The notes under the pieces were generated by a model. The model ran no database searches, had not been told where the DNA came from, and saw only the letters and a list, made by a program, of their open reading frames with translations. Made by a program: the position numbers and the translations under genes. Positions 282 through 57,310 of a DNA stretch of 64,000 bases are shown here, in pieces (position 1 is the first letter of the stretch; each line of letters begins with the position of its first letter). The DNA comes from Ulota crispa (lineage: Eukaryota; Streptophyta; Bryopsida; Orthotrichales; Orthotrichaceae). The stretch is taken from the NCBI GenBank assembly GCA_963920765.1, contig OY987244.1, forward strand, positions 8,992,501 to 9,056,500. Direction: 5' to 3'.

Positions 282-1191
282 CCCCTAAAGGACCAAGCAT
301 AGTTTTCACCAATAACTCTTCAAAACTGCCATTTTTAGAGCATCAACCAAATTTGAAAATAAAAACATTTTTATGCATATGTGACCATAGGATCTTGTAA
401 AAGAATGGTTATAGAAGATGTGGAATATTTTTTAGAGTTTTCCACCATGTGGATTGGAAGTTAGAATGGTTTGAATATTCAAAAACATCTTGTGAAAAAC
501 CGGGTAGCTACCCTTCAGAAGGTGAAATTCCTAAGGAAAAAAGGCCATGTGGGTGGTGCTTCTCTAAATTCCTTATTCCACCTTAGTAAAGTACATGCCA
601 AAAAAGTTTCAAATCATTTGGAGTTGCATAACATATGGAAAAAAATTAGTAAGTTAAAAGAAGTAGAGAATGATTCAAAACACTAAATTGTTAAGAATAT
701 AATTATGGAAATGAAAAATGCCAATCCCAATGGTCATAATGTTGTCATAAACAATCTTTATCCTTTGGTTTTGCTTTTTTTTCCAAAATAATGAAAATTG
801 AGTAAAATAAAGGACTTCTAAGTTTATTTTGGAGTAGAGAATCCATAACTACCCGCAAACAAAAAATCCTCATAACTTTCATCTCGTTGATCAAAATGGA
901 ATGATTCAAAGCTTCCTACATTCACATAAATCTCCTAAACCGATATAAATTTTTTTTTGAAAAAATTTACTTTTAAAAGCTGCCCAGGTTGCTCAACAAA
1001 CATAAAAACAACATATTAGGCCATAACTTTCTACTCATAATTCCAAATGTCATGAAATTGAGTGCATATGAAAGATAAACCTTGTCCCCACATTCACTTG
1101 AAACTTCAGCCTAAAATATGAAAAGCTCCAATCACAAGTACCTGCCCAAAATCGCTATGTTTCTACAAAAGGGGGTCTGGTCCTTTAGGGG
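282..1191. mobile_element. PB1, piggyBac-like MITE
   Basis: The left end reads CCCCTAAAGGACCAAGC and the right end is its inverted match, TGGTCCTTTAGGGG. TTAA lies immediately outside on both sides (278-281 and 1192-1195), the target duplication of piggyBac-type transposons. The interior has no coding capacity. After the left end comes the module A signature (TTCACC, then CAAAACTGCCA), and the part from about 690 onward resembles the interior of PB14 at 44760-45000. Length is 910 bp, typical of the family here. Class assignment rests on termini and duplication only. Confidence 0.85.
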
Positions 1192-1220
1192 TTAAATCAT
1201 CCCCTCACTTGGTTGAGTAG

Positions 1221-1841
1221 TACATAACCTACACTAAAATAGTGCATTTAGGTTGCCTTAACGATTAGGTTGCCTTACCTTGGCAAATTACTTCATGATC
1301 CATGACTTGGCCATTTTGAGGCGCTTGCAACTTTCCAAATGTTAAAATTTCACATGGATTACAACTTAGAGGTAGCTAGTTTGTTTTTCCCTAACTACAA
1401 TGTTGTTGCCAAACTTTTTAAACACTGTTTAATGTATTAATTACCAATGAAAATTATTGTAGTACTAATAAATATGTATATAATGTAAAACGCCAAGAAA
1501 CTAGTGTGGGGCAACCTAAATGCACTATGTTGTGTTTAGGTTGCCCCACACTAATTTCTTCACTTCTACACTATATAAATATTTATTGGCACTATAGCAA
1601 TTTTCATCAATAAGTATTAACTACTATAACAAACTAATTTTAAAGGGCTTGGCAATAACAAGGAAGTTGCAAAAAAAACTAACTACTTGCATCTAAGTTG
1701 TAAACCATATGAAATTCTAATATCTAAAGAGTTATATGCACCTCCAAGTGACCAAGCAATAAATCATGAAGTAGTTTTCCAAGATAAAGAAATTTAATTG
1801 TTAAGGCAACCTAGATGCAATATTTAGTGTAAACTACATGT
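1221..1841. mobile_element. Foldback element, about 300-bp arms
   Basis: The two halves are imperfect inverted copies meeting near 1525-1530, where GGGGCAACCTAAATGCAC is followed at once by its inverted copy. The outer ends also match inversely (CACTAAAATAGTGCAT left, ATGCAATATTTAGTGT right). No coding capacity. A single half, without its partner, recurs at 32983-33285. The superfamily is not clear; a TA-type target is possible (TAC at the left edge, GTA at the right). Confidence 0.7.
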
Positions 1842-2115
1842 AAGTAAGGCACAAATGAATGTTCCATACACGTGTACACGTTTGTCCCTACAGCTATTAT
1901 TAGGAATAAATTTAATCCATATGCTCGATAATAACCTCTAACAGTCAACACAAACCATTAATTGTAAACCAAATGAGAAATAAAGTGAGTTAAATAATAG
2001 GATAAATAACGCTATAAGTATCATAATACAACTTATCATTATTAGTTTAGTATACCTTTGAGAAAGAAATTTTAGAAACTTCGTCCATTTTTTTCACCCA
2101 TATATGTATTGTTAA

Positions 2116-3420
2116 CCCCTAAAGGCCCAAGTGGCCCCTCAGAGGCGAAGTGGGGTTTTGGGCATATACTTACAGTTAAACTATTTTGTGTGATTTTTTG
2201 AAGCTAAGCCACACCTACCTGCAAACTAAAACTTCTCATAACTTTCATCTCATCAATCAAAATTGAACAATTCAAAATCCCCATGTATATATAAGTCTGA
2301 GGAACCTATTTCATTTTTTAATTTTTTTTCAATGCAATTTTTAAAGAAGTTTTTGGGCTGCATGTTGTCCCCCGTTTTCTAGAATTTCCTTTTTAACTTC
2401 TCAATAAATGTTGGAATGAAGAAAAAATTAGAAGCCCTCACAGATTTTTGAATTCCCCATCTTCCATAAAAGTCTCAAAAAACCACACAAAGTAGTTTAG
2501 CCGTAGGTACAATTGGGTACCAGCTCCTTACAAATGGCTCATTTGGGCTAGTTTGTTTTTTATATAATACATGGAGTATAATTGGTCCATTTTGGTAGGA
2601 AAAAACATCATTGCATACTTATGCAATATTAAGCAAATAAACCAAATTTCTGTTCCTAAAAACCAAAACTCCATTTTTGGTGAATTGTTTTGTAAAACAT
2701 TCATGGTTTTACATGATAATTTATTGAGAAATATTGGTGATGAATTTTTGAGATTTGATTCTATGAATATGCAGGAAACATCCATATACACATCTTTCAT
2801 GCTAAAAAACCCCCTTAAGTAACAAAAACTTTACCATCAAAAGATTCAATGAAACTTGCGATAGGCCTAAATTTTGTAAAATACATATTTTTCTATGAAA
2901 ATCAAAATTTGTTGTTTGATTCAAATATTGTAACTAAGTTTGTATCTCTAAACATCAAATTTTGTTTACTTGATGAAAAGCTAGTTAAAAAACAAAAATA
3001 TATATTTTACAAATTTGGGCCTGTCACAAGTTTCATTGAATCTTAAGTTTTTGTTACTTAAGGGGGTTCTTTTTAGCATGAAAGATATGCATATGGATGT
3101 TTCCTACATATCCATGGAATCAAAGCTCAAAAATTCATCACCAATATTTTTCAATAAAGTATCATGTAAAACCATGAATTTCTTACAAAACAATTCACCA
3201 AAAATGAAGTTTTGATTTTTACGAATTCAAATTTGGTGTACTTGCTTTATATTGCATAAGCATGCAATGATAATTTTTCCTACCAAAATGGACCAATTAT
3301 ACTCCATGTTTATATAAAAAAATTAGCTGATCCAAAAGAGCAATTTGTAAGGAGCCGGTATGCGACTGTACATGCCCGAAACCTCACTTGGCCCCCAAGG
3401 GCCACTTGGGCCTTTACGGG
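2116..3420. mobile_element. PB2, palindromic piggyBac-like element
   Basis: Termini CCCCTAAAGGCCCAAGTGG and CCACTTGGGCCTTTACGGG lie between TTAA copies at 2112-2115 and 3421-3424. It is the longest copy (1305 bp) and has module B-like sequence at both ends (TTTTGGGCATATAC left, TACATGCCCGAAA right). From about 2565 to 3310 the interior is a foldback: the left arm around 2570-2840 returns inverted at about 3030-3305, and the loop at 2850-3045 is itself partly self-complementary. The short open frames on both strands here are mirror images caused by the palindrome, not genes. Confidence 0.85.
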
Positions 3421-3424
3421 TTAA

Positions 3425-5110
3425 GGTTGAAACTCAAGTAACTTTCTCCATATCTTTTTGAGTAAATCTTATGCAAAATTCTATGGTTAGATTTGTAAAA
3501 GATAAGAGAGAATTGTTCTTGGGTTTAAATGACTACGAATGACAATTTTGAGTATTTTTTGAGAAAAGAAATGATCTTGATTCATTAGAGGTTAAGTAGA
3601 GGAACTTTCTCAATGTGAGTTTGGAGGGATTTCCTTTGTGATGATGTTTATGTTTGGATTGCTTTTCAACAAGCTTCTTTTCTTTACTATTGTCTTTTAG
3701 AACCATTCAACATTCTCTCATAAACCAAAGGAGTTTGAGTGGATGAAGTATAAAACACAATTATGCATAATAAGAAAGTATTGGGAAAGTTCTATCAATA
3801 TGAATGGCCTTTTACTGTAAAATCACGGTTGTTTGTGTGTACATTTATAAGTACAAATACTTCCAAATCCATTTAATAGCACATTTTATATTTACAAATT
3901 CTCGCATATCCTTGAATTCTGTTCTACTGAATATAAAACTGATCATGTAACTTATGAGTAAGAGTACTTGTGAAAATGTGCTTTGAAGCTCATTTGTATC
4001 CAAGATAGTGTTGTTTGACACAGCTGAAAGTATTAATAAAACATACAACACACGTCGTTATACAAGGTTTTGACGTGATTTTCAAGTAGTTGCAAAAACA
4101 CTAGTTAAATTTTTACTTCCAAGAATTAATCTTTCAATTCCTTGAAGACCATGGAGTAATCAAATACCCAAACATGCAAATATGTTTTATACAGTGCACT
4201 CTAACTGAACAATTTATTAGTAACTTTCAATCAAAAGTCTCAAATAATGATCTACGGAGACTACAGACCATATCTATAAGGCTAAATTTACCATGTAATC
4301 TACAAACAAAAAATTAAACTAACCATCCAAAATTCCTTCTATAATTGATTTTGGATAAAATTTATACATGAATTTCCATAAGGGCTTTTTCTTGTGATTT
4401 ATGATATAATATTCTAAATGTCTCACGTCTTAAGATAACAAAAACTCATGCTTATTTTTTGAAGTCAAACTTTTAGAATCATTTTTTGAACTAGAATCAC
4501 TAATGCTTAAGACTTGTGTTCTTTGAATCAAAAAATAGTTACAAAGGTAAGCTTAGGAAATCTACTATATCTTATAATGTTAAAAGAACAATATAAGAAT
4601 TATACAACATGTGGATGGATGAAAAAATAATATTTTGTATGCATGAAGTCTGCCTTTATTCATTCATTGTTCATAAATTGAACACCTTATTTTTAACCAT
4701 CCAAAAGTGCAATCAACCGTAAATGGATTGATGAGTTATTTCAAACCTTTGTCACTCACAATCCAAAACATTTTCTTAGTGTGGTTTTTCTTTCTGCAAA
4801 CACTTAGATAATATACTTTTTCGACATATTGGCTTGATCCAACATCGTTAGAATGTGCAATTTAGTAAAAGTATTGAAATTAAAATACGTGATTTTTTTC
4901 TTACATCAAATTTTTTACTTTGAAAATGTCCTTGTAAAAATGAACTCATAGAAATTATACTATGAATTGAAGGAAAAAATGTCGGAAAAGCACAACAAGG
5001 ATTTTGCCACATTCAGTATCCTTTTCAACAAGTTCCAAATTCATCAATAGTTTGTTTGTAATCAAGCTTAGAAAGTTTTGAGATTTGAAGTTTCAAAACT
5101 CGTCTTGATA
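3425..5110. other. AT-rich intergenic sequence
   Basis: No gene or delimited element recognised. The short minus-strand open frame at 3845-4051 has no recognisable family. The stretch ends at a tandem repeat. Confidence 0.5.
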
Positions 5111-5251
5111 TAAGAGTGATAGTATTGGTATAAATGACCAATTGAATATGATTTATATAAGAGTGATAGTATTGGTATAAATGACCAATTGAATATGATT
5201 TATATAAGAGTGATAGTATTGGTATAAATGACCAATTGAATATGATTTATA
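5111..5251. repeat. 47-bp tandem repeat, three copies
   Basis: The unit beginning TAAGAGTGATAGTATTGG starts at 5111, 5158 and 5205, a spacing of exactly 47 bases, and the three copies look identical. Such identity suggests a recent duplication by slippage or unequal exchange. No coding role is apparent. Confidence 0.95.
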
Positions 5252-5348
5252 TTTCCAATCTACAACTCTAACCAACCTGCCAAGTCCAAATTATTTATGT
5301 TACATTTTATGGTAGATCTTTATAATTCTTCAAAGCTGGAAGGGTTAA

Positions 5349-6267
5349 CCCGTAAAGGATCAAACTGCATTTTTTTTTTTTTTGGCAACATAGCAATCTT
5401 GGGCAAGTTAGTACTTCTAGAATAATAAATACATTCTCACAAAAAATTTAGAGGATGTGTCTTCAAGGAGTAGCTTTCCAATGCAACAATTTTCAAACCA
5501 TTGGGATTTGTTGAAAAAATGTGATGATGGAATATGTACTTATGTTTGTTTGTTAGGCAAGATGGGCAAAATTGTTTACACTGGAGCTGAAATTTTGGGA
5601 TCTTGCCCAACGGTTGAGAGGCAAAGACATTTCCTTGTCAGATTTGGCACAACCTCATTCCATGAAGGCAATTGTTTTTGCTTACTGCCCCTTACTTCTC
5701 CTTTATTGGAAGAAGGCCCTATATTGATCAAGCTTGTCAAAGCCATAGTCTTGGTCAATTTCCTTTTTCTTCCCTCATTTGAAGCTAGCTAAAATCTAAA
5801 ACCCCACTATTCACATTTTGAAAAGATTAGTATAAGTGAAAGTTAAAAATTGTTGAAAAAACAGCTTTGCATGAGAATTTTCTTGAAGCTGGTTTCATAT
5901 TCTAAAATTTTAGTATGTGTTTGCCAATTCAAAATATTGTGAAACTTTTTGGACATATGGCTAGCTCTATCACACGCATCAATCTAGAGGAGTTCAAGCA
6001 AAAAAGTGATATTAGCTAGTGGTAAAGCTTTCCCAAATTAGAGCTACCAAGAAAAAATATTTGTCACTTCAAACTTTATAATCTCACAATTTGTACAATA
6101 AATATCTTTCATCTTTTCACTACATCACAATAAAATAGTCTAATACTACATCCTACAATAAATCACACCAAGATTATTATTATTTTATTTGCCTTTGCCA
6201 TCAAAACGACCCATTTTGAGTGATTTTTCGGCGAAACATAATCAAAGAATCTTAGGGGGTAGGGGTG
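5349..6267. mobile_element. PB3, degraded piggyBac-like MITE
   Basis: The left end CCCGTAAAGGATCAAAC follows TTAA at 5345-5348. The right end is decayed (GGGGGTAGGGGTG before TTAA at 6268-6271), but module A sequence is recognisable just inside it as the inverted form of ATCACTCAAAATGG at about 6210-6225. The 111-residue frame at 5457-5792 lies inside and resembles no family I know. Left edge firm, right edge moderately sure. Confidence 0.6.
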
Positions 6268-10402: not shown

Positions 10403-11256
10403 CCCTTAAAGGTCCGCGCATCCACTTTTTGGATGCACCTTGGTCAACCTTGATTGTAATTTTTAAAATATCCATTTTTGGTATGTGGTTCAAACTAATA
10501 AAATGAAACTTGACAAGTTTTCTTTTTATTCCATTTAATTTTTTTGAAAAATGTCAAAAACTGCATGAGTTATTTCCTTTAAAATCTCCAAGTGTTAGAA
10601 TCCAAATAACATAATATGGTGTGTTTTTCATTCATATTTTTGACTCTCTAAATACATTTTAAATTTAAACTACAAAACTATGTTTCTCATTCTACCATTC
10701 ATTTATGGTAGAAATTATAGATTTTTTAAATATATATTCTAATTGATATTATTTTATTTCCACATTTAGCTTTAAAAAATCACAATAATTTGAAATTTTC
10801 ATCAAATTTATCAAAAATGTTATTGTAAATAGAAAATGAATGTGTCTTCCAGCAAAAAATATCAAAATTTTATAAATTAATTAAATATAAGAATAAACTT
10901 GGTTTAATAGTCATATTTAACTTTGAATTATTTGTTGTGGCTGTTTTGGGTGTAAAAAATAAAAGAACCAATTAATTTTTTTTCATGTTGATCTTTAATG
11001 TTGCTTCTACCTTTTGAAAAAAATTCAAGTAATTTGGATTTTTTTGCTATTTTAATTTATTTATGTTCATTTTTTGAAAAAAAAATGATAATAATTAAAA
11101 AACTTGATGAAAAAACTTGAAATTTCTTGCAGTGATATATCATTCATAGTTTCTAGCAAGAAAAATATAAATTTCTTGTTAAACACATTTTAACAGACAG
11201 AATTGAGCTTAGACATGAAGTTTGACCATTTCAAAATAGATCAAGTCCTTTAGGGG
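10403..11256. mobile_element. PB4, piggyBac-like MITE
   Basis: Termini CCCTTAAAGGTCC and TCAAGTCCTTTAGGGG lie between TTAA at 10399-10402 and 11257-11260. A hairpin sits just inside the left end: GCATCCA (10418-10424) pairs with TGGATGC (10430-10436). The interior is very AT-rich and non-coding. Only 20 bases separate it from PB5. Confidence 0.85.
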
Positions 11257-11280: not shown

Positions 11281-12134
11281 CCCCTAAAGGACCATTGTCC
11301 CTTTGGGGGACAAATGGGATTTTGGGCAGGTACCTACGGCCTCAATTTTTGTCTTAATTTTTTGAAACTTTTTTTGTTTATGCCCAAATAAGTACAAATT
11401 TGGGGACTAGGGGCAGCAAAAAAAATTCTTATAAAAACTTGAAATAAAAATTTAATATTTTTTTCTTATAGATTATATCTTTTTGTATGCCTGAAGCTTT
11501 GAATCATTCCATTTGGAGTAGTTATGAGAAAGTTATGGACAATCTTGTTTTTCAGGCAACTCAAGTATCTTCTTGAAAAATAACTTATAAACTTCATTTT
11601 TGAATGCACGTTTAACATTTTTTCAAAAAAATCTGTTGGAGAGGGTGAAGTTTGCTTTCTAGAACAATCTCACCATTGGAATTATTGCGTTTCAATTCCA
11701 TTGCAGGGTTATTAGCAATTTAAGTTTTTGTTCAATCTCATACCTTCTTCTACCTAATGTTTTTTTAAAGAATGAAAATTATGTATTCTTTTTTGAAATT
11801 TTTTTCCAAGATTCCCAACTTAACTTCCCACCATGAAAAAATAGAATTCCAAACTCTATAGTGCAAAAATTTTAAGCTAAAAATGTTCAAAGTTAAAAAA
11901 TCTAGTCAAGCAAGGTGCAAAAAAAGTTGTTTTTTACTTTTTAAATGCAAATATCTTCCAATCTATGGGGTCAAAGTTCTTGAGTTTTGTATGACACATT
12001 CTTGTAGTGGTCTAGCACAAGATCCTACAATCAGATATGCAAAATGCGTGATTTTCAAACTTTTTTACTTTTTGCCATAGAGGTGGCAATTTTGAGTGTC
12101 TTTTGACAAGAAAAAGGCCATGGTCCTTTAGGGG
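11281..12134. mobile_element. PB5, piggyBac-like MITE, intact termini
   Basis: One of the best preserved copies: CCCCTAAAGGACCATTGTCC at the left and ATGGTCCTTTAGGGG at the right, with TTAA at 11277-11280 and 12135-12138. The left (B) end carries the subterminal hairpin CCATTGTCC / GGACAAATGG followed by GATTTTGGGCAGG; the right (A) end carries the inverted AAAATTGCC motif. Nearly the whole right two-thirds matches PB17 (51557-52472). The 65-residue frame at 11883-12080 is inside and non-coding in appearance. Confidence 0.9.
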
Positions 12135-15734: not shown

Positions 15735-15964
15735 CCCCTGAGCGGCCAGAGTTGTTTTAGAGTTTAAGAGAAAATGGGGGATTTAATGACCACCACAGCT
15801 TGAAAATTTACATCCAAAAAAAGTGACCGTAGGATTTGAAACAGGACTACCTTGTTTGCTGATAGGGACAAGTTAGGACTTTTTTCACAATATGGATCAA
15901 GAGAAAAAGTTAGATCAACTTGGGATCCCTAGCGACAGGATCCCGTCGCTGGGGCGCTTAGGGG
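15735..15964. mobile_element. PB6, short piggyBac-like MITE
   Basis: At 230 bp this is a short derivative. Termini CCCCTGAGCGGCCAGAG and GGGGCGCTTAGGGG lie between TTAA at 15731-15734 and 15965-15968. Just inside the right end is a hairpin, AGCGAC (15931-15936) with GTCGCT (15945-15950). The left 160 bases closely match the left part of PB16 (GAAAATGGGGGATTTAATG), so the two share a subfamily. Confidence 0.85.
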
Positions 15965-16848: not shown

Positions 16849-17795
16849 TCACTAAAGGACCAAGTGTCTGTTTAGCGGACACTTGAGAACTTGGGTAGGG
16901 TCATACAAAGTCAAATTTAATTGGATGTTCTCAAGAACTGTCACAAAAGGTATATATGTGTATCTCTCAAATAGAAATGTAGATTTTTCCCCAATCAGAT
17001 GTCCAATTCAAAAGTTATGTTGCCCAAAAGCATTTGCGCAGCTTAAGCATCTTTGGGCATCTTTAGGGAATCTTATGCTAAAACTCTAGTCAACTTTTGA
17101 AATTTGGCATGTATGTAGCTAATAAAATATGATACACAATTATCAAAAGAATAAAAACAAAAAATGAGCTATCAATTCACATTCTAAGAGGAGTCAAACT
17201 TTGCTAACTATGTTTGGGTGGTTTCAAGAAAAAATATTCTCTTCTAATTTTTGGCCAAAATATCTTGCAACCTATAAATTCAAAGCTCTTTAATTTTTTG
17301 CCACATATTCCAAATGTTTGTCTCTAACTTTTCATCATTTTGATTTAAAATAAAAGACTTTCTTGTTACACAAAAAATCATGAACAAATCACTAGAGTAT
17401 TGCCAATTTACTGAACCTCCGGGTGATTTGGAATAAGCAAGATTCTATATTTGCTTCTGAAATTTTTCATGTGTGACCCTAACATTATATACTTATGAAT
17501 GGCCAAAAACTTCAAATTTGTGTAGAGCAAAACTTTTACTCCAAGAGGGCTTGAAATCTGCTGAAATAGTTTTGCAAGAATGAAAAATAGTTGTTTTTCT
17601 CACTTCAACTGTTATAATCTCACAATCCACGCGGTCAAATGAGCTGAGATTTTTTGCACATACTGGCTCATTTGTTTAAAAAAAATTGCATAGTTGAAGT
17701 TCAAAAAAATGTATCATTTTCAATTTTGGGCAAAGCACTAAAAGTTGGCAGTTTCCACAAATTTTTCTCAAAAAAACACCCTTGGTCCTTTAGGG
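16849..17795. mobile_element. PB7, diverged piggyBac-like MITE
   Basis: The left end TCACTAAAGGACCAAGTG is mutated at its tip; the right end is CTTGGTCCTTTAGGG. TTAA flanks at 16845-16848 and 17796-17799. Inside the left end is a perfect 8-base hairpin, CAAGTGTC (16861-16868) with GACACTTG (16878-16885). The interior matches PB15 in inverted orientation. Non-coding. Confidence 0.8.
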
Positions 17796-17946
17796 TTAAT
17801 CACTTGGCACATTCATTGTGTTGCGGTGGAGATTGCTAGCCCTCCCGCCCCACTTTGACCTCAAAGAGCCCTCCAAAATGTGTGGCGTGTTTGCTCCAAT
17901 GTGGATGGGTGGAGATGCTCTAACATTCCTATTTGGTCTTTGTTAA

Positions 17947-18875
17947 CTCCTAAAGACCTAAGTGTCCCCTCGGGGATAAATGAACCTCAAGTATGTATCT
18001 ATGATTAAACCAGTTTTTATAAAAAAATTGAAATTTTTGTGGATGGTGGGGAATTCAAAGATGTACGTGCACATCCAAATTTTTCTTCATTCCGAGAATT
18101 ATTGAAGAAGTTATGCAAGAACTTGTCACCAACGGGTGAGGGCAAGCAGTCTGGGCAACCCAAAAAACTTCTTTAAAAATTGTATTTTTTTATTTAAAAA
18201 ATCTGAAATTGGTTCTTTTGATTATTATATATGTGGAAAGCTTTGAATCATTTGCTTTTGATTAGTGAGTGAGAAGTTTTAGTTTGCGGATAGGTATTGG
18301 ATTTCCAAATCTCCATTTCTTTTGCCCCTTGTAAAATTTTGTGCTTTAATTTTTTTTACTTTTATAATTCCAAGTTGTAGTAAACTAAGATTCCTTGGTT
18401 TTCACCATTTGGATTAAAGTAATTTAGATTTCTCAATTTTCCATAAATCCTCCAATTTTGCCCAATGTATATGCAAATTTCATAGCCTTACGGCACTGCA
18501 ATATTTTACAAATTATGATCCACACCTCCAATTCATTTGAAAATTCTCCCACATTTACCTAACTTGGTCTCCTACATGGGAAAAATGAACCTCAACTATG
18601 CGTAGAGCAACTTTTTTGATATAAGAGAGGTCAAAGGCTTCTGAAATTTTTTGGCAACAAGGAAAAAACTTATTTTTGCACTTCAAACATGAATATCTCA
18701 CTCCTCTGCATCTAAAAAGAGCTGATTTTTTCATTGCAAGTATCTCCCATAGTCTAGAACATGATCCTACTGTTGGATTTTCAAAACACACTTGTTTTCC
18801 TAATTTTCTACTCATTCCTCCAAAAGTGGCAGTTTTCAATGATTTTACAGAAAAAAAGGCTTGGCCCTTTAGGGG
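17947..18875. mobile_element. PB8, piggyBac-like MITE
   Basis: Termini CTCCTAAAGACCTAAGTGTC and TTGGCCCTTTAGGGG, with TTAA at 17943-17946 and 18876-18879. Module B is on the left (GAAATTTTTGTGGATGGTGGG, then GAATTCAAAGATGT) and inverted module A on the right (AAAAGTGGCAGTTTTCAATG). The opposed short frames at 18555-18879 are shadows within the element. Order is B then A, opposite to PB14. Confidence 0.85.
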
Positions 18876-19239: not shown

Positions 19240-19654
19240 GGGCATCCCCAATGCAGCTGTAAGAGAGGCAGGCAAAAGCTTATGTAGTGCTTTAAATTCA
19301 ACTTGAGCAAATGGGCTCCAATGTAGCAGTTAAACCATACTGCATTTTTCAAGGCTCCCCACATAAGAGCCCCTCCCCTGCAAATTTTCACTATTTGGAG
19401 AATCCTGCATACCACACCAACTTTGACTCTGACGCAATTTCAGGGAATTTCAAATACTTCTGACATGAATCAGCCACACATAAGTACTTCAAAAAGACAT
19501 AAACTATTCAAAACTCATGTTTAGTGAGTGTCAGAGCTTGTATGCATTGGGGACAGCTTGACTTGAAAATGCCCTTGCTCTGCAACACAGCCGGTGTCAG
19601 CCACTGTCTCACGCAATTTGCCCAACTCAAATCCCTGCTAGATTGGGGATGCCC
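19240..19654. mobile_element. PIF/Harbinger-type MITE, copy 1
   Basis: Begins GGGCATCCCCAATGCAGC and ends GATTGGGGATGCCC, bounded by TTA at 19237-19239 and 19655-19657. A 3-base TTA duplication with GGG...CCC ends fits PIF/Harbinger (Tourist) MITEs. The interior contains CAAGGCTCCCCACATAAGAG. The next element starts at the same TTA, in opposite internal orientation. The minus-strand frame at 19415-19203 is a shadow. Confidence 0.85.
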
Positions 19655-22157: not shown

Positions 22158-24818
22158 CTACCGCATTCCAGCGTCACCGGTCTCCGGATCTGCAGCCTCC
22201 TTCACCTGCAATACCAACGGCCTCAGCCCTGCTTCGAACTTGGGGTCCCTGAACTTCTCGAAGTAGCCGAACTCGATGCCTTCTTTGAGAGTCGGAGAGT
22301 CCAGAGCCATTTGCGCTTCGGCGTCGAAGGTCGAATGCACGCCGTAGAAAAGGTAGAACAGCACGGCGACGCCCGTCCAGACGAGGAACCGGATGTACGA
22401 GGCCTTGTCCACAGAGCCCAGGAGGAACACGTTCAGGAAGATGGACGCGGCTGCCACCCACGGCATGCACGGCACGCTCCAGTCTTTGCCTTTCTGCGCC
22501 GCGGGGACTCGGAGCCAGAATGTCGTCGTGAGAGCGACCACCAGGCCGCCGAGGAAGTACAGCACCCACTTGTGCCGATTCTCCCTGTCCCACTGCCACA
22601 CGGTCACGAACGTGGTCGACAGCACGGTGAGCGCCACTATGAACGCTGCCGTGGGCAACGCGCTGGTCTTGCCGGGGACGTGGTGGCGGCGGAAGATGAG
22701 CGCGTTCGCGACCATGTAGAACACGAACAGCGTGCCGATGGAAATCAGGTTCAGAAGCACCGAGAGATCCGTGAAGAGCGCTATTCCTGCAGTGCACACA
22801 CCTGACGCAACCACCAGAATACATCCCCATGTCACAACACAGAAAAGTGATATGTGTAGCGGATCGAGTGAAGAGGCTCTGAAGCATGCAATTTCAAAGT
22901 GGGGTTAGAGACCCGGTGCTTACCGAGGAAGATGGTGGCGTTGACAGGAGTGCCAGTGGTGGGATGAACGGCAGCAAACCAGTGGGGCACTATGTGGGCG
23001 CGACCAAGCACACACATGTAGCGCGCCTGGCCGAGCATCGCGACCAGGAGAGACGTGACGATGCCCAAGCTTGCACCCGCACCGATGAAATTAGTTGCCC
23101 ACTCCCATCCCCCGATGTGCTGGAACGCCGTGGAGAACGGAGCTCCCGTGTCAATCTGCAGAAGAATTACAAGCTATTTTCAGACCCCACCAAGAGAGGA
23201 TAGTAAAATCTGTCTGACCCTGAAAGTAGATGTGAAGTTGCAGAGAGAATTGAAGGGTATACCATGTCGTACGGCTGCAGCATGCACAAGGCGACAGCGA
23301 TGAGCGAGTACAGGACTGTGACAATAACCACTGAACCTGAAACCCCAATCGGCATGTTTCTGGCGGGGTTCTTCACTTCCTCGGCGGTGGTGGAGACGGC
23401 GTCGAAGCCGATGTAGCTGAAATACACGATGGCAGCGCCGTTGAAGATCCCTCGGATCCCCATGGGAGCGAAGCCTGACTCGCTGCTCACTGCGTCGCCG
23501 GCTTGCGTGAGGTTCCGGGTGTCCCCTTTCACGAATCCCGCGACGATGATGAACAGTATAAACGCAATGTGGAGAACCGTCATCACCAGGTTGAACATGG
23601 AGCTCTTCCTCGTGCTGCAGCACAAGCACACGGTGAGCAGCACCACCACCGCGACCGCCACGAGATCGATCTGGTTGTAGCCTGCCGCAAAGCCTCCGAC
23701 GTGCACACGCCATGCGTCGGCGTGAAGCACACCGTAGGCGCTTGCGGCGTAGGATGTGAAGCTCCTCGCTACCGCCGCGTTGGACAAGACATACTCCATG
23801 ATTAAGTTTGCCCCAGTTATGAACGCAGCGAATTCCCCTGAAACCAAAGCAACACGAACTTCACTCAATAACTTTCCATTACGACCATCCCTAACGCGAC
23901 ATTCTAAAAAACCCCTGCAAAAATTACAGATCTGGATGAAAAATTTGAAGACAGAAAACCTGCTTTTTCTCAGTAACAAGGTCATTCCAGGACACAAAAG
24001 CTTCACAGATTTGGTCACACACAGAAGCCCCAAATATTAGTGAGTGCGGCGCGGCACGTACCGAAAGTGATGCGCAGGTAGCTGAAAGCACCGCCCGCGA
24101 CCGGCATCTCCACAGCAAACTCAGTGTAGCAGAGCGCCGACAGCAGAGCTGAGACTCCTGCGACCAAGTAGGAGATGACCACTGCAGGTCCAGCATAAGT
24201 GTGAGCTGCACTTCCAGACGAGACGAAGATGCCAGCGCCTACCATTCCACCCACTCCCAGCGCTATGACGTCCCACCAATGCAAACTCCGGCTCATCTCG
24301 GCGCCGGATCGAGCTTTCACCTGCGCCAAACAAAGTAAAACATGATTCTCAAAACCACATAATCATTGACCGCAACACATTCAAACTAAATTAGTAGGAT
24401 TAAGAGGTTTCAGCAACCCCTGTAACACACATCGAGTGGACCCTGTGCTGCACTCTTTTCCTTCCAACTTAGCTACCGCGCGGTTGAGCCGCAAAGGGAC
24501 AGCAAAAAGAAAAATGTTCAAGGCATCAAAGCACCCAGGGTTGAGAGCGTAGCAAGTCCCAATGCGTTGCAAGGACCTCCCAAATATATATCGGGACTCG
24601 CAAAGCAACAAGGCCAACCAAAAACAAGTCCACAGGAGCAGAAGCGGGAATAAGTTGGGATTGATCGCTACCTCCGTCATTTCTTCGGTAGGTGTCGACA
24701 CCGCGCAAGCTCGCTCGCGGAGCCGCTTCGGAGTCGCAAGGATCGCGCGGCCATACTCAGAAGCGCTTGAGAAGCTGGACTGGGGATGGTACCGAACTCC
24801 TCCTGCGCCGCCCGCCAT
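22158..24818 (-). CDS. CAT: Cationic amino acid transporter (APC superfamily)
   Basis: Predicted plasma- or endo-membrane carrier of cationic amino acids, related to plant CAT transporters. Five coding exons on the minus strand: 24818-24672, 24320-24062, 23837-23263, 23155-22924 and 22786-22158, all with GT/AG borders. They total 1842 bases, i.e. 613 residues plus TAG, close to plant CATs. Residues 35-60 (RACAVSTPTEEM, then VKARSGAEM) match the conserved cytosolic lead-in of the CAT1/5/8-type branch. The first membrane segment carries GAGIFV (77-82), followed by CYTEFA (113-118), YIGFDAVSTTAEEVKNP (277-293), GQARYMCVLGRAHIVPHW (369-386) and a CAT C-terminal domain at about 509-558. Many hydrophobic segments fit the usual 14. 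The first ATG in the frame is at 24818. Substrate is inferred from family only. The gene lies in a GC-rich island; no neighbour suggests a linked function. Confidence 0.93.
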
Positions 24819-37108: not shown

Positions 37109-38015
37109 CCCTTTAACGACCACACCCATTTTTACAAAATCCACTAAAAACAAGGGCTGCAAGCTTAGATTTGGAATTGACTCAAACATGGACCCATTTT
37201 CAATAATCCAACCGTACAAATGGGAAGTACACCTTGTTTATTGTAAAGCACCAATATTTCAGCTAGATCTATCGTTGGAGGTGACATATTATAATGATTG
37301 AGTGAACCATATGCCGAAAATCTCTTGTGTTTCATTCTTGTTTAGTTTTGAATGTTAACCTTTCATGCTAGCTTTGATTGAGAAAAGCCTTACATTTCTA
37401 GAAAGCAGGATTTCCCACCTTTCCAACAAGACTATTTTCACACAAAATAAACAAAAATAGCAATCACAAGGTGTAGCTAAGTGGACAAAAAGGGTAAAAA
37501 AACCCACTTTCTTTGCTACCCTAAAACGGTTCTACAAGAAATTTGATAATTATTCTGGAAAATCCAATTGGTGAAAAAAATCAAGAATTGGCCTTAAATG
37601 TAGGATGACAAATTTTAAAGCCAAAATGACAACACTATTTCAATAGATCTTCAAATACTACAATTATACTACTACCATATATGAGAACAATACAAGCATA
37701 TTTCTTAAGGAATTTGAAATTTGTTAGAATTGTGCAATTGAAATTTGACATTCTTCTTGCATACTTGATGTACGGTGTTGTTGCTTTGATCCATCTTTAA
37801 GAAAAAATGAATATGTATTTTGAAGCCTTGCCGTATAAACACCATTATTTATCAACTCACATATCCAATTGCATTGTTGTTTTTTTAAATAGATGCATAA
37901 TTCTTGTGATCACATGCGTACTTCAAAACCAAATTCCAAATTATTGAGTGATTTCAACCTACATGCCAAAAACCACTCCCAGCGACCAGAATATGGTCGC
38001 ATGGTCCTTAAAGGG
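37109..38015. mobile_element. PB11, diverged piggyBac-like MITE
   Basis: Ends CCCTTTAACGACCACACCC and ATGGTCCTTAAAGGG lie between TTAA at 37105-37108 and 38016-38019. The right end holds a perfect 7-base hairpin, GCGACCA (37982-37988) with TGGTCGC (37994-38000). The outside flanks repeat the terminal motif (AGGG before, CCCGTTAACCCG after), as if it had inserted next to another terminus. The interior is non-coding. Confidence 0.8.
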
Positions 38016-44025: not shown

Positions 44026-44053
44026 CCCCAAAGGGACAATGGTCCTTTAGGGG
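44026..44053. mobile_element. PB13, solo 28-bp piggyBac-like terminus
   Basis: The sequence AAAGGGACAATGGTCCTTTA with CCCC before and GGG after equals, inverted and almost exactly, the left terminus of PB5 including its hairpin. TTAA precedes it at 44022-44025; GTAA follows. So the visible remnant is one B end, either the result of a large deletion or of abortive excision. Confidence 0.65.
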
Positions 44054-46135: not shown

Positions 46136-47090
46136 CCTCTAGAGGACCGATGATGTTTTTAGAGAAAAAATCTTAGAAACTACCAACTTTTAGAGCATTG
46201 ACCAAAATTGAAAATAAAAACATTCTTTTTGAATTTCAATTGTAAAAAAGTGTGTTAAACATAAAAATCAATATCTCCCAAAAATTTCAGCCCATTTAAG
46301 GACATGGATTGTAAGATTAGAATGTTTGAAGTAAGAAAAACAACTTTTTTCATTCTTGCAAAACAAGGTTAGTAAACTTTGAGCCCTCCTAGAGTAAATT
46401 TTTTGCTCTACACAAATTTTGAGCTTTTTTACTGTTCACAAGTATATGATGTTGGATTCACTCATGAAAAATTTCAAAAGCAAATATAGAATCTAGCTTA
46501 TTCTAAATTACCCTCCAATGCAAGAAGGTTAAGAGAATTGGCAATACACTAGTTATTTTTTCATGATTTCTTGTGCAATGAGGAAGTCTTGTATTTGGAA
46601 TTTGATAAGGGAAAAGTTCAAAACAAATATCTGGAATATGTGGAAAAACATTTAAGAGCTTTGAAGTTATATATTGCAAGATAATAGTGCTTAAAATTAG
46701 AAGAGGATAATTTTTCTTGAAACCACCCGGACAGAGTTAACAAAGTTTGACTCCTCTTAAAAAGTGATTTGAGAGCTCATTTTTTCTTCTTGTTTTGCTC
46801 GTTGTATACCATATTTTATTAGTTATATACATGCCAAATTTCAAAACTTGATGAGAGTTTTAGCATAAGATTCTCCAAAGATGCCCAAATTGCCTTAATT
46901 GCCCAAATTCTTTATGGCATCAAAACTTTTGAATTAGGCATCTGATTGGAGAAAAAATTACATTTCCACTTGGGAGATATTTATTTACACCTTATGTAAC
47001 TATTTTGAGAACATCCAATAAAAATTAACTTTGGATGACTCTACGTGAGTTCCCAAGTGTCCGTTGGACACACTCTTGGTCCTTTAGGGC
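46136..47090. mobile_element. PB15, diverged piggyBac-like MITE
   Basis: Ends CCTCTAGAGGACCGATG and TCTTGGTCCTTTAGGGC; the TTAA flanks are no longer intact, so this is an older copy. Near the right end GTGTCC (47057-47062) pairs with GGACAC (47066-47071). The interior aligns, inverted, with PB7: both hold the TGCCAATTTACTGAACC / TTGGCAATACACTAG region and the CATCTTTGGGCATC / GATGCCCAAATTGCC region. Non-coding. Confidence 0.7.
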
Positions 47091-50458: not shown

Positions 50459-51552
50459 CCCCTTAGCGCCTAGAGTTATTTCAAGGTTTGGGAGAAAATG
50501 GGGGATTTAATGGCCACCACAGCTTGGAAAATTACATCCAAGAAAATTGACAGCAGGATTTGAAAAAGGATTACCTTCTCTGCTGATGGCGACCAACCAT
50601 GACTGTTTTCACTGTACACATTAAGAGAAAAAGTGAGATAAAGTTCACTCAAAATTGCCACTTTTAAGGGAGTGAGGAGAAATGTAATTTTTGTTTTTGG
50701 AAATCCAACTAGAAGATCTTGCCCTAGACCATGGGAGGTACTTGTGGGAAAAAAATCAGCTCATTCTAGTTGTAGACAAGTGAGATATTGACATCTGAAG
50801 TGAAAACAAAAGTTTTTTCCTTGCTGCTCAAAAATTTTAGAAGCCTTTGACGGCTCCTACATCAAAAAAATTGATCTACTCAAAGTTGAGGTTTATTTTT
50901 CCCATGTAGAAGACCAAGCTAGCTAGGTAAATGTGGGAGAATTTTCAAATGAAACGGAGGTGTGGATCATACGTTGTAAAATCTTGCAATGCCATAAGGT
51001 CATGAAATTTGCACATACACTAGGCAAAATTGGAGGATTTATGTAAAATTCAAAAACCCAAATTGCTTTGATCCAAATGGTGAAAACCAAGGACTTTTAG
51101 TCTTCTACAACTTGCAAAAAACAAAAGTCAAAAAACAAATACACAAAGAGCCCAAAAAATTAAAGCAACAAGTTTTACAAGGGGGAAAAGGAATGGAGGT
51201 TTGGGAGTCCCATACCTGCCTGCAAACTAAAACTTCTCATAACTTTCATCTCATTTATCAAAATTGAATGATTAAAAGCTTCCCTAATACATAAAAATTT
51301 GAAGAACCAATTTCAAAATTTTATTTAAAAAAATTACAATTTTTTTTGCTGCCCAAGTCTCCCTTTTTTATCAATTATTCATGCATAACTTCTTCAATAA
51401 TTGTCAGAGTGAAGGAAAAATTAGATTCCCACGCAGATCTTATAATTCCCCATCTTCAATAAAAGTTTCAAAAAATCACGCAAAGTAGTTTAGCCATAGG
51501 TACCTGCCCAAAATCCCATTTGTCCCTCGAGGGGACAATGGGCCTTTAGGGG
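50459..51552. mobile_element. PB16, composite piggyBac-like MITE
   Basis: Left end CCCCTTAGCGCCTAGAG after TTAA 50455-50458; right end GGGCCTTTAGGGG before TTAA 51553-51556. The left 160 bases match PB6; from about 50640 the interior switches to module A (TTCACTCAAAATTGCCAC) and then to inverted module B at the right. The right hairpin is CATTTGTCCC with GGGGACAATG around TCGA (51518-51540). It looks like a recombinant or nested copy. The TTAA on its right is shared with PB17. Confidence 0.85.
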
Positions 51553-51556: not shown

Positions 51557-52472
51557 CCCCTAAGGAACCAACTGTCTATTCAATTGACAAATGGGATTTT
51601 GGGCATGTACCTATGGCCAAACTACTTTGCATGATTTTTTGAAACTTTTATTGAAAACGGGGAATTCAAAGATTTGCGTGGGCATCTAATGTTTATTCCA
51701 ATTGATGCCAGGGAGCAAAAGTTATGCCCAAATAAGCACAAATTTGGGGACTCCAAGCAGCAAGAAAAGTTCTTTTAAAAAATTTAAAAAAAATTAATTT
51801 TTTTCTCATAGATTATATCTTTTTCTACATCTGAAGTTTTGATTCATTCCATTTGGACTAGTTGTGAGAAAGTTATGGACAATCTTGTTTTTTGGACAAT
51901 TCAAGCATCTTCTTGCAAAAATAACTTATAAACTTCATTTTTGAATGCAAGTTTAACATTTTTTCAAAAGAAATTGTTGGAGAGGGTGAATTTATCTTTC
52001 TAGAACAATCTCACTAGTGGGATCATTGCATTTCAATTCTATTGTAGGATTATTAGCAATTTAAGTTTTTGTTCAATCTCATACCCTCTTCTGCTTAATA
52101 TTTTTGTAAAGAATGAAATTAATTATTTTTTGTTATTTTTTTCCCCAAGATTACCAACTCAACTTTGCACCAAGCAAAAATAGAATTCCAAACTCTATGG
52201 TGCAAAAGTTTTAAGTTAAAAAAGTTCATAGTCAAATAATCTAGTCATGCAAGGTGCAAAAAAAATGTTTTTTACTTTTTAAATGCAAATATCTTCCAAC
52301 TTGTACAGCCAAAGTTCTTGAGTTTTGTATGACACATTCTTATAGTAGTCTAGTACAAGATCTTACGATTAGATATGCAAAACAATTGATTTTCAAACTT
52401 TTTTACTCTTTGCCATAGAGGTGATAGTTTTGAGTGTCTTTTGACAAAATAAAGGCCATTTTCCTTTAGGGG
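51557..52472. mobile_element. PB17, piggyBac-like MITE sharing TTAA with PB16
   Basis: Left end CCCCTAAGGAACCAACTGTC after the shared TTAA 51553-51556; right end CATTTTCCTTTAGGGG before TTAA 52473-52476. Module B on the left (GGGATTTTGGGCATGTACC, GAATTCAAAGATTTGCGTGG). From about 51690 it is a close relative of PB5, sharing CAAATTTGGGGACT and GAGTTTTGTATGACACATTC. Non-coding, 916 bases. Confidence 0.88.
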
Positions 52473-52476
52473 TTAA

Positions 52477-54207
52477 GGTTTAATGGCCAAAGTCCATCAT
52501 TTTATAAGGGCTGATTCACACCATGAATGTAGGCCATTAACACTTGGGGTTGAATTTGAACCAAAATTGTGAGCTAAACTGGCATCAAGTAGCGTTTATT
52601 TTTTGTGTATTTTCGCTGGTAACTTACTGCTTGTCATTAGAGGTTGTTTGGTAATTGGGAAAGCTCTAAGGTAGTGTGCTCATATTCTGCCCATGCTCTA
52701 ATCCCGAGCACCTCTTCAAATGTACCCTACTGATACATGTCTTATTCATAACCTTTCAACAATGTACACAAGATGAATATTTGAGAGGTGGGCAGTTTTA
52801 GAGCACCTATGGCCTTTCCACAAAATTTCATAACTAATTCCACAAAACTCCATAAAATATGAAAACACTTGGGATAGATGACAATTCTTCTGGTCTTTCA
52901 AGAAAATTTTACTGAAAAATATTTCAAGAAGTTCTACCTCCCAAAATTCGGTTTCAGCCCTTAGATGGTCGGTTTTCGAGCCTTCTACCTTATAGAAACA
53001 CCAATATCCATGCAAAATGAGGGTCAACATCGCATACTGACTTGTCAGAATCGTACCTTCTTACCTCTTTTGTGCACTGGCTAGTGGCTACCTTGGATGA
53101 AATCACCAAACGCCTCTCAAAGAAACGAGGGTGGCGCCGATATAGAGATGAAAGTTAGTAACTGGAGAACCCCGACAGTATGGATGAACATGGCCACGTG
53201 GAAGATTCGGGGGTGCGTGTCGCTAGGGCAACACGAGAGGAACAGAAAATGAAGGGGGCAGAAAGAGGCCGGGGCAGAGCTGGGTGGGAGCATGGGAAGA
53301 GGCCGGAAGCAGGAGGCAAATGATGGGGGGCATTTGTCAAGAGAGGGCGCTACCAGTGGGAATCACGAATGGGGTTTGGACAGGGAAGTTGTTAGCGTTG
53401 TCTCCACTCTCCCCTGCAGCATTCTTCGCATATCCTGAATTAACTCAACTTATATCCTCCCCTTCCCTTGTCTTTCTCAAGTGAACCCAGTCAGCCGTAA
53501 CTCACAGCCCAGTGAGCCCACCCTCCTCGTCTAGATAAAAATTTGGTCCTCCAGCAAGTTTTGAATACAATCGTTGAATGCCATTTGCAACAGGAAAAGT
53601 TCAATACAGTATTCATAAAGTTGACACAACTTTCAAGGCATAGAAGTTCCTTTCCTTGATTCTCAAATAACCTTGCCCTAAAGCTCCTTAGTTTCAATCA
53701 CAAGACAACACCTCTGAATCCGTTTGAATCTCTTGTATTTGCTCTAAACTTATGGTTTGTAATACTCAAGAATTTTAGTTTTTTTGAGTATCCTATAACA
53801 AAAACTTTTAGATTGAAGACACTTTTTTTTCACACTTCATTTTGATGAATTTTGATCATTCTACTCTTGAGATTGCACTACTGTATATTTTCGGGTATGT
53901 TCTCTGGAGATTAGATTCAATGCTGGGTATACCTGCATCATGATGCAAAAGCTAACATTCTGTGTGGCCCATGGAAATATCTAGGCCTTTCTAGAGAAAT
54001 CCCAAATGCTACTCATCAGGGGGCAGTATCCAGCAACCGACCTAGGGCACTCAAGCACCCGAGAGACTAAACCTCGGTCATAGGGCATGATTCCGCATCT
54101 GCCCTTGCCATTTACCGAGTGGTCTCATTGCAACATGAGCTGCTAAATGCCACGTCGTCAAAGCATTGTCATTGTTTTCCACGTGGTAGGAGATTCTGGA
54201 AGCCCTT
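52477..54207. other. Intergenic sequence with a GC-richer patch
   Basis: No gene can be supported. At about 53100-53480 the sequence becomes GC-richer and contains a CACGTG (G-box core, near 53194), with opposed frames of about 60 residues that match nothing known. It might be a fragment of a gene or a decayed insertion. Confidence 0.45.
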
Positions 54208-55018
54208 GCCTGAAGGCCCATTCCCATTGCATAGTTGGACGTGTCTGGGTGAGAATCATTTTGTCTTCTTCTTTGACGTGGGTCCACCAACATGGGTTTG
54301 AAGTGAGTTTCTCATGTTCCATTCTCATCCGGACATCCATCAGCAATTCGTCAACTGTGTTCATTGTTCTAAGATGAGTCACATTAAATCTCATTCTCAT
54401 TGGCAAGATGTGTGAGAGGAATGTGCATGGACAAAAATATATAAGCAAAGACTAAAAGCACAAGAAAATTTCAAAACCCCACCATCAAGAAGGTCCCACA
54501 TCATTACTACCACCTTTTGAGGCCATACATGGAACCTTCTCATTAGTTGCTTGAAATGGGGGAATGCGTCATACAAGAGAACTTGTTTTACTGATGCATT
54601 CTAAGTACGTTTGAGAAACTCATTTCAAACCCATGTTGGTAGACCCACGTCAGGGAAGAAGACAAAAAGATTCTCCCCGAAGCACGTCCAATTGTGCAAT
54701 GGGAATGGGCCTTCAAACATATTAGAATGCGTCAGTAAAACAAGTTCTCTTGTATGACACATTCCCCCATTTCAAGCAACTAATGAGAAGGTTCCATGTA
54801 CGACCTCAAAAGGTGGTAGTAATGATGTGGGACCTTCTTGGTGGTGGGGTTTTGAAACTTTCTTGTGCTTTTAGTCTTTGCTTGTATATTTTTGTCCATG
54901 CAAATTCCTCTCATGCATCTTGCCAATGAGAATGAGATTCAGTGTCACTCATCTTAGAACAGTGAACACAGCTGACAAACTGCTGGTGGACGTCCCAGTG
55001 AGAATGGAGCATGAGCAG
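54208..55018. repeat. Interleaved inverted duplication A-B-A'-B'
   Basis: Four blocks: A (about 54208-54302), B (about 54313-54600), A' (about 54612-54715, inverted A) and B' (about 54722-55015, inverted B). Anchors: CCCATGTTGGTAGACCCACG in A' against TGGGTCCACCAACATGGG in A; GAAATGGGGGAATGCGTCAT in B against ATGACACATTCCCCCATTTC in B'. Blocks are about 90% alike by eye. A simple foldback would give A-B-B'-A', so a rearrangement is implied. The frames on both strands here are mirror images. Confidence 0.8.
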
Positions 55019-55041
55019 AGTCTTGTATAAGACCCTCTCTA

Positions 55042-55255
55042 AGGTAACCCGCTCTAATCCCGACCATGCGTCTAATCCTGCGCAAATCTACACCCTCAAT
55101 AGATTTCAGATCTAGAATCTAGGAGAGCCCGAGATAGCTTATCTTCCCCAAAAGATAAGCTATCTCGGGCTCTCCTAGATTCTAGATTTGAAATCTACTG
55201 AGGGTGTAGATTTGCGCAGGATTAGACGCATGGTCGGGATTAGAGCGAGTTACCT
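55042..55255. mobile_element. Near-perfect foldback, AGGTAAC ends, TA flanks
   Basis: Begins AGGTAACCCGCTCTAATCCC and ends GGGATTAGAGCGAGTTACCT, with TA at 55040-55041 and 55256-55257. Arms of about 100 bases are almost identical down to a turn at about 55145-55153 (GATAAGCTATC facing GATAGCTTATC). The termini resemble the AGGTAG family in its first five bases and in the TA flank. High arm identity suggests a young element. Confidence 0.85.
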
Positions 55256-55270
55256 TACACTGGAGGTGAG

Positions 55271-55698
55271 AGCATCCCCAAGCATCCCCAGTGTAGCCAT
55301 AGTAAAGCACGGGAAAGTTTGTACAAAGTATTAAACTAGGCATGAGTGAAAATCAGGGCTCCAATGTAGCAAGTACTTGCTATTGTATTTTTCAAGGCTC
55401 CCCATGCAAAAGTCCCTCCCTTGCATATTTGCACTATTTTGGAGAGTCTTGCATACCACTCTAGAGTGTTTGATTCTCTAACCCTAATGCAATTTCAAAT
55501 ATTTCTGACATGAATCTTCTCACATAAACACTTAAAAAAAGCATAAACATTAAAAGAAATTGTGTTTAGTGAGTGTCATAACTTATTTGCATTGGGGGCT
55601 GGGAGGTTGGGAAATGGCCCTACCCTGTAAGTGAGCTGTAGTCAGAGTCAGTCAAACAGGGTTTTTTGTGCCAATGTTTGGGCTACATTGGGGATGCT
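55271..55698. mobile_element. Harbinger-type MITE, copy 3
   Basis: Left AGCATCCCCAAGCATCCCCA, right ACATTGGGGATGCT. The interior matches the pair at 19240-20069: GGGCTCCAATGTAGCA, CAAGGCTCCCCATGCAAAAG and ATTTCTGACATGAATC recur. Its terminal G run and the 3-base duplication are less clear than in copies 1 and 2. Confidence 0.75.
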
Positions 55699-56311
55699 TT
55701 GAGAAGACATGAAAAAAAACCTCTCACCAGTTATGACTTGTCCTTGAAAGGCCAGCTTTTGGAAGCAAATCAAAACCCATCCTTTTCCAAGACTGCCACT
55801 TCAGGGAATGCCAATTTGTGAGCGGGATCCATGAGCTATGTGCCCAAGGCCTAGATATCTTTATCAAACTATTAAATTTCACTTATAAATGTGTACATAG
55901 GATCTTGTACTTGTGCATCATAAATGTTCATCTCTTGAAAAACTAGTTATTTTTTAAATTTTCTTATTGCTTTTGAGCTCAAAATTGGTTCTTATCCACA
56001 AAATCTTGACTCACCGCTCATGAGCTCACTGTTTTTACAGTCGTCCCTGCCCCCACACAGCAAACAGCAAAAGGCATGAGTTGAGCTTTTCGGCAAGGAG
56101 CAATTCAAGGTGTAACAAAAGAGTCCCATACCCTCTTTCATCTTGTTAGCAACACACAAGTGAAATTGACTGAAACAGCACTTCAAAGCAAATTTCAGCC
56201 GCTGTTGAAACAATTACGTGAGTTAAATAAATCCACAACAACATCTTGATGCTAAACGCTTTAGTAGGGGGCCGTCAATATGGAAACTTTTATCACAAAT
56301 TTGCTTAACAC
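55699..56311. other. Intergenic spacer
   Basis: A short minus-strand frame (56213-55992) has no recognisable family. Nothing else supported. Confidence 0.45.
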
Positions 56312-56315
56312 TTAA

Positions 56316-56958
56316 CCCCTACATGCCCAGGGCACCCAATTTGGATGTTTATAAATCCTTGAAGATGAATACAACTCAAATCACTATTTTTAGTTTTTTT
56401 TCTTTCAAAAAAGGTTTGTTTTGAAGTCTATCATCAACTTTAACAATATGATATTGAAAATGAGCGTTGATGATTTTCCTACTCAAGATTTATACAAGGA
56501 TGTTCATTGTAATCTTGAGTTTTTTTACTGTTGAAAAACCTTAAAAAGGAGCCTCAAAGACACTAGAGCTTGGAGAAAAATTTACATTAGAATTCATTTA
56601 AAAATAAATATAGGAGTAGATTTTGAAAGCCGTAAATTGATTGAAGTTAAACATGTAATGAACTTAAACCTCACATTTTTGTGGTGACCAACTTTTCAGA
56701 TTTGACATGTGAAATGAGGATTGGAAGACTTCAAGTCCTTTTTTGAGTTTTAACACCCTCATGTTCAAACATAATATTTTTTTTAATTTATAAGTGGCAT
56801 TGTTATGTTTTCTTTTTCCATGTAATCTTTAACATGTTTAGTTTGAATTTATACGGTTACAATTAAAAAAAACTTGATGAAATTTGTGAAAAAGTTGGTT
56901 GATTGTTTAGTTTCATAGAGATTCCAAGAAGCTCAAAAAGGCCTTGGGCATTTAGGGG
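56316..56958. mobile_element. PB18, piggyBac-like MITE
   Basis: Left end CCCCTACATGCCCAGGGC after TTAA 56312-56315; right end TTGGGCATTTAGGGG before TTGG (decayed). The interior is AT-rich and non-coding. At 643 bases it is shorter than most of the family, and internal modules are not recognisable. Confidence 0.7.
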
Positions 56959-56962
56959 TTGG

Positions 56963-57310
56963 ACAACAAGGCATATGGGTTTCTTTGGCTGGTTTTCAAA
57001 AGGAGAAAAACTGTTTTCCATTTTAACTTTTAGGAAAGTGATCATGAACACATAGTTTGTCATGGAAGGTAAAAAAATCTTCATTGTGCACACATTTTTT
57101 TAGGTAACCCAAATTGTAAGAAGATTCACAGACATGACCTTGTTTGATCTCATGTTACCCTTCTTACAATTTCATGATTGATAGCAGCATGCATTGTTGA
57201 CTTCTACAACTCTTAAAAAAATATAACAATGTGTGAGTAGTTGCCACACCATTGTAGTGCTATTAGAGAGGGGCAGCCATTGTGATCAGCCCAAAGTTTA
57301 GGAATTAAAG
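56963..57310. mobile_element. PB19, partial subfamily C piggyBac-like MITE
   Basis: Interior TCATGGAAGGTAAAAAAATC and CCAAATTGTAAGAAGATTCA, then TTGCCACACCATTGTAG, align with PB10 and PB12, but the left terminus is lost where it abuts PB18. The right edge (GTTTAGGAATTAAAG) keeps a TTAA-like end. The minus-strand frame 57093-56863 lies across the junction and is not supported as a gene. Confidence 0.55.

Follow-up and report, generated by a model that had tools for sequence, protein, structure and literature searches.

Short non-coding repeats flanked by TTAA in a bryopsid moss genome: a probable piggyBac family with a covarying palindrome mainly at one end

A 64,000-nt stretch of the Ulota crispa genome (positions 8,992,501-9,056,500 of contig OY987244.1, here C3, 34 Mb; assembly GCA_963920765.1, 274.8 Mb in 157 contigs), which we refer to at its full length as the window, carries a family of dispersed repeats. 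We conclude with high confidence that these are non-autonomous elements of the piggyBac superfamily, similar to miniature inverted-repeat transposable elements (MITEs) and mostly 850-950 bp long, in a bryopsid moss. The end motif of the main subfamily in the window is CCCCTAAAGGACC, and TTAACCCCTAAAGGACC is the exact 17-mer made up of TTAA and this end. With up to two mismatches allowed, CCCCTAAAGGACC ends number 23 in the window (10 forward, 13 reverse), and 14 elements were delimited, with TTAA on both sides of 10, on one side of three and on neither side of one. The features are listed below with their flanking tetranucleotides and, where assigned, the strand and the two end types, H for ends that carry a ATTTTGGGCA-like box near bp 40 and N for ends without it.

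282..1191: element of 910 bp, TTAA/TTAA, ends N/H
2116..3420: element of 1305 bp, TTAA/TTAA, H/H ends, fold-back form with a long inverted repeat inside
5349..5361, + strand: single left end, preceded by TTAA, partner end not found
10403..11256: element of 854 bp, TTAA/TTAA, ends H/N
11281..12134: element of 854 bp, TTAA/TTAA, ends H/N, best partner in L030 at 91.9% identity
11294..11316, + strand: H-end palindrome of element 11281-12134, at its bp 14-36, as an example
15735..15964: short element of 230 bp, TTAA/TTAA, variant ends CCCCTGAGCGGCC / CCCCTAAGCGCCC
16849..17796: element of 948 bp, TTAA/TAAT
17947..18875: element of 929 bp, TTAA/TTAA
27611..28525: element of 915 bp, TTAA/TTAA, ends H/N with a degenerate right end
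37109..38015: element of 907 bp, TTAA/TTAA, ends CCCTTTAACGACC / CCCTTTAAGGACC, interior matching the empty site of L011:6174-7101
44026..44053: remnant, two facing ends 28 bp apart, preceded by TTAA
44347..45276: element of 930 bp, TTAA/TTAG, ends N/H
46136..47090: element of 955 bp, TGAA/CCTA, 79% identical to 16849-17796
50459..51552: element of 1094 bp, TTAA/TTAA, ends N/H
51557..52472: element of 916 bp, TTAA/TTAA, ends H/N, one TTAA common with element 50459-51552
56316..56958: element of 643 bp, TTAA/TTGG
22158..24320, - strand: cationic amino-acid transporter gene, last exons only, host marker

A preliminary description of the window had counted 18 delimited copies, most of them between exact TTAA copies, that occupied roughly a fifth of the window and coded for no transposase. 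The family and its TTAA flanks stand, with the count revised to 14 delimited elements. Measured as homology to the 61 elements delimited in all, coverage of the window is 17.9%, close to the earlier figure, and tblastn with 16 piggyBac relatives gave no transposase hit there at E ≤ 0.01. The interior of the element at 2116-3420 is 81% self-complementary, its H/H ends representing a fold-back form of the family. A single element spanning 16849-18875 was considered and rejected in favor of the two listed.

The transporter of the window shares 80-84% identity with proteins of Ceratodon and Physcomitrium, 68% with that of Sphagnum and 57% with that of Marchantia paleacea. Given the 80-84% identity to moss proteins, the host is, by sequence likeness, a bryopsid (true) moss, which narrows the plant genome proposed earlier.

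Genome-wide, the exact 17-mer TTAACCCCTAAAGGACC occurs 8,154 times (4,072 and 4,082 by strand in 274.8 Mb), and its reversed control does not occur. Across the window and 21 other stretches, of which one opens contig C1 and 20 were taken from six contigs at round coordinates, 55 ends lie within two mismatches of the motif, 42 of them after TTAA. Because the same DNA read in reverse gives two ends, none after TTAA, a chance origin is excluded. The first eight loci with the exact 17-mer represent six distinct elements, five of which have TTAA at the opposite end, the only informative one because the retrieving end has TTAA by selection. The family covers 25.4 of 207.5 kb (12.3%) in the 21 stretches, which would extrapolate to about 34 Mb of the genome. 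The delimited elements cluster at 900-949 bp (31 of 61) and 200-249 bp (10), and like MITEs they are short and non-coding with inverted ends and high copy number.

Of the 61 delimited elements, 46 have a partner that spans 80% or more of their length, mostly at 80-93% identity. These identities suggest that the bursts are old, and the sample gives no sign of present activity. One inverted pair, L048 and L049 (C1:906871 and C1:913755), is 100% identical over 920 bp; as its flanks are identical too where read, we take it for an inverted segmental duplication. It either arose recently or stems from the assembly, and inverted transposase pairs with equal scores are also present on C2, C7 and C10.

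To recover empty sites, the flanks of 31 elements were joined and 304 kb were scanned for uninterrupted paralogues. Six matches spanned the flank joint; two that adjoined their own element were dropped, and four, belonging to three elements, were kept. All four paralogous empty sites run on across the joint, and three read a single TTAA, which agrees with the TTAA target proposed in the preliminary description and supports duplication of TTAA upon insertion. The empty site of L011:6174-7101 corresponds to the interior of the window element at 37109-38015, so a family member inserted into a relative of that element.

Among 62 TTAA ends in the sample, C occupies position 1 in 98%, position 2 in 95% and position 3 in 94%; the termini are thus 5'-CC..GG-3', and the short terminal inverted repeats start with CC(C). 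Kolobok elements share the TTAA duplication seen at the empty sites. They differ in their termini, given as 5'-RR..YY-3' (PMC9587614) as opposed to CC..GG in the moss, and the genome carries numerous piggyBac transposases; we regard a Kolobok origin as barely credible, though no search with a Kolobok model was made.

The PF13843 (DDE_Tnp_1_7) profile yields at least 120 matches in the genome (528 first-look candidates, 116 scored), the best at E 1.3e-73; the 14 control genomes yield no match. By our own count, 110 of 120 matches contain stops. The first 50 rows contain 104 TAG, 57 TGA and 25 TAA stops, and three rows are stop-free; one possible cause of the excess of TAG and TGA is that methylated cytosines were lost in CHG and CG contexts. 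The open reading frame (ORF) at L073 matches the T. ni piggyBac transposase (6x67, E 4e-20) and piggyBat (9c0f, E 6e-17). L073 and its relatives align at D positions that we take to be catalytic. As L073 has N at the third of these, the first D of VDxxD in the relatives, and its cysteine domain lies in another frame with cysteines lost, we read it as a probable relic. Searched as DNA, L073 gives 40 genomic matches, most of them coding and all but its own at 65-77% identity.

A search of 5.8 billion proteins, confined to shared 5-residue words, returned 16 relatives by single sequence and 57 by profile. Nearly all are unnamed proteins from assemblies or metagenomes, and a single one carries a species name, a beetle protein with 25% identity. 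In general, piggyBac is best known from animals. A C-terminal cysteine pattern is present in the transposase P0121 and, by eye, in L074 and L075. Viral contigs searched with P0121 contained no relative, and its AlphaFold model (mean predicted local distance difference test score, pLDDT, 50.6) was too weak for a fold search. Three copies among L074-L077 are stop-free in the matched domain (C1:1180709-1181995, C8:19570986-19572215 and C2:34594948-34595949, with frames of 563, 472 and 389 amino acids) and are candidate domesticated moss genes. The 3' flanks of these three copies, as read, show no TTAA-bounded tip.

Elements and transposases are connected through a sister subfamily with ends CCC[C/T]TTAGGGC, similar size and TTAA flanks. 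The 3' flank of the stop-free copy at C2:34594948-34595949 matches L011:3126-3545 at 69%, and a local alignment extends this match to the tips, which read GCCCTAAAGGG followed by TTAA in L011 (position 3600) and GCCCTAAGGGG in the C2 copy. L011:2679-3600 is a TTAA-bounded element of 922 bp with no piggyBac coding match; this non-coding element and the transposase copy therefore have their 3' region in common as far as the tip. In the genome, TTAACCCYTTAGGGCY ends number 119 + 121 (control 0). Among 100 places listed, two facing TTAACCCYTTAGGGCY ends, both with TTAA, bracket the transposase at C2:21309041-21310042 in a span of 5,441 bp, and another lies 2.3 kb 3' of C2:1344023-1344745. In 5,000 rotations of the TTAACCCYTTAGGGCY places against 47 transposase intervals on C1-C3, a bracket arose in 10, and the two transposases observed with a facing end compare with a rotation mean of 0.27. 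A longer element enclosing a transposase, of the kind that the preliminary description had proposed looking for, was thus found for the sister ends, not for CCCCTAAAGGACC ends.

Several observations weigh against assigning the main subfamily to piggyBac. No transposase bracket was found for CCCCTAAAGGACC ends and three further variants. Of 431 listed end places (28 and 3 as whole lists, and 100 each of 174, 602, 287 and 224) compared with 131 transposase intervals, a single place lies within 6 kb of a transposase and faces it, compared with about 1.2 expected by chance. The flanks of three stop-free transposases, L073 (4 kb), L075 and L076 (1.3 kb each), contain no CCCCTAAAGGACC-type end as read. 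At the TTAA itself, the fourth empty site, that of L010, has a diverged TTAA, the L015 empty site has a 2-base gap one base past TTAA, L007 reads ATAA on one side, and the C2:34594948 copy has ATGG where TTAA is expected, the TTAA having been lost. The sole facing end, at C1:31694370, was not accepted as a link and might belong to a short copy; a short-copy partner pattern accompanies 14 of 36 similar ends on C1 but not C1:31694370, a comparison that is not decisive. The longer candidates L030-L032 on C1 were likewise rejected as autonomous elements, having no ORF above 128 amino acids.

The missing bracket would suit another TTAA-inserting group, Sola3 or an undescribed one, having moved the main subfamily, with the piggyBac genes unrelated to it. 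This we consider very unlikely, though no search with a Sola model was made, as the sister subfamily, of similar size and with the same TTAA flanks, is tied to piggyBac genes, and CCCCTTAGGGCCCC and CCCCTAAAGGACCC have 11 of 14 tip bases in common. Placement of the main subfamily in piggyBac is therefore supported by its target, its tips, its resemblance to the sister subfamily and the transposases present in the genome, rather than by a bracketed gene, in line with the earlier assignment: empty sites with TTAA, CC..GG termini, DDE_Tnp_1_7 genes and similar-ended elements with transposases all point in this direction.

The two end types are distributed unevenly within elements. Among 176 distinct TTAA ends, many from loci selected for exact ends, 76 are H and 100 are N, and of the 51 delimited elements that reach 600 bp, 44 are H/N, five H/H and two N/N. 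Many H ends contain a palindrome between the inverted repeat and the box, at about bp 14-36 and centered near bp 25. A palindrome score of at least 6 is reached by 46 of 76 H ends (2.2% of shuffles) and by 15 of 100 N ends (2.6% of shuffles).

In 30 H ends picked by eye for diversity, a choice biased to palindrome bearers, nine pairs are formed in 86.3% of cells and both sides vary in eight of the nine. Covariation is 0.528, compared to 0.196 in shuffles and at most 0.217 when the arms are slid. RNAalifold gives an identical stem plus one inner pair. Pair 15/36 fails in 17 of the 30 ends, and further pair types exceed the shuffles only weakly (18 of 500 reach the observed count). When all 7-pair helices are scored on all 76 H ends, columns 17-23/27-33 rank first at 0.435 (73% Watson-Crick; shuffled 0.194 ± 0.018).

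This covariation might be an effect of relatedness, with a few subfamilies each inheriting one palindrome. The shuffles ignore kinship, and relatedness inflates the score, as the 76 ends give 0.351 even for an unrelated helix (23/47, 24% Watson-Crick). Set against this are the first rank of the palindrome, the low scores of slid arms and the several distinct arm pairs that stay complementary, such as GCGACC/GGTCGC and GCAACC/GGTTGC, and we think it unlikely that kinship explains the pattern.

Covariation is also compatible with any paired structure, including a palindrome that works as a folded single strand of RNA or DNA rather than as a protein-dimer site on duplex DNA. In such a hairpin G-T should exceed C-A, yet by our own tally columns 17-22/28-33 of the 76 ends contain 25 G-T/T-G and 26 C-A/A-C cells. 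The near equality suits a double-stranded dyad, and the position agrees with the protein-bound palindromes of two piggyBac elements; a hairpin function is unlikely. Because the cysteine-domain sites of T. ni piggyBac and piggyBat lie at about the same place, the H-end palindrome is probably a site for the transposase C-terminal domain, and we infer that the H end is the left end.

Within the piggyBac interpretation, what is known of the family suggests that moss transposases would act in trans on the non-coding copies, cutting at the CCC/GGG tips and reinserting them at new TTAA sites. A dimer of the C-terminal cysteine-rich domain would most likely bind the H-end palindrome, with the N end mostly lacking one. 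The arms covary, so symmetry is retained while their sequence drifts, presumably following diverging C-terminal domains. More tentatively, it is possible, if doubtful, that mosses have their own long-lived piggyBac radiation in which left-end palindrome and C-terminal domain coevolved through many states, and that some stop-free transposases have become moss genes. If so, the differing half-sites within one genome would represent distinct, naturally occurring systems of piggyBac end recognition, with a readable covariation code.

Two further features of the window are a different repeat family, with copies at 19313-19600 and 55356-55645 that are 71-80% identical over two blocks, and an ORF at 60089-60739 (+) with an RF-1 release-factor domain (E 1.1e-11). 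Elsewhere, a 198-amino-acid ORF at L029 5450 (+) resembles a CACTA tnp2 transposase and is a putative one.

That about one eighth of the sampled moss DNA appears to be piggyBac-type changes the view of land plants, and implies that a cut-and-paste piggyBac system once thrived in one. The covarying palindrome makes the evolution of piggyBac end recognition directly accessible, through the question of which half-sites pair with which C-terminal domain, and TTAA-specific plant transposases could serve plant genetics. A literature search, judged by titles and the start of abstracts, found no paper describing piggyBac-type elements in moss.

Comparison with known systems places these features in context. 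T. ni piggyBac (6x67/6x68) resembles the moss family in its TTAA target, related transposase domain and palindrome at a similar place. There, a cysteine-rich-domain dimer binds and bends palindromic bp 17-33 of one left end (PMC7351741), and a 19-bp palindrome occurs on both ends at differing distances (PMC11707139), whereas the moss palindrome lies mainly at one end and differs in sequence from copy to copy. piggyBat of Myotis lucifugus (9c0f) likewise has a related transposase and an imperfect palindrome at the left end only, repeated three times (PMC11707139); in the moss only one, beside the tip, was sought. The piggyBac-derived PGBD1 and PGBD5 lack the cysteine-rich domain, so it is not universal (PMC11707139). 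The fern Ceratopteris, compared by annotation only, shares the PiggyBac label in a land plant, with 1,230 repeat copies and 122 kb (PMC6890710), set against about 12% of sampled DNA in the moss. The superfamily is a known one; its host, its scale and the evolution of its ends are unusual, and the H-end palindrome with covarying arms, mainly at one end, is new.

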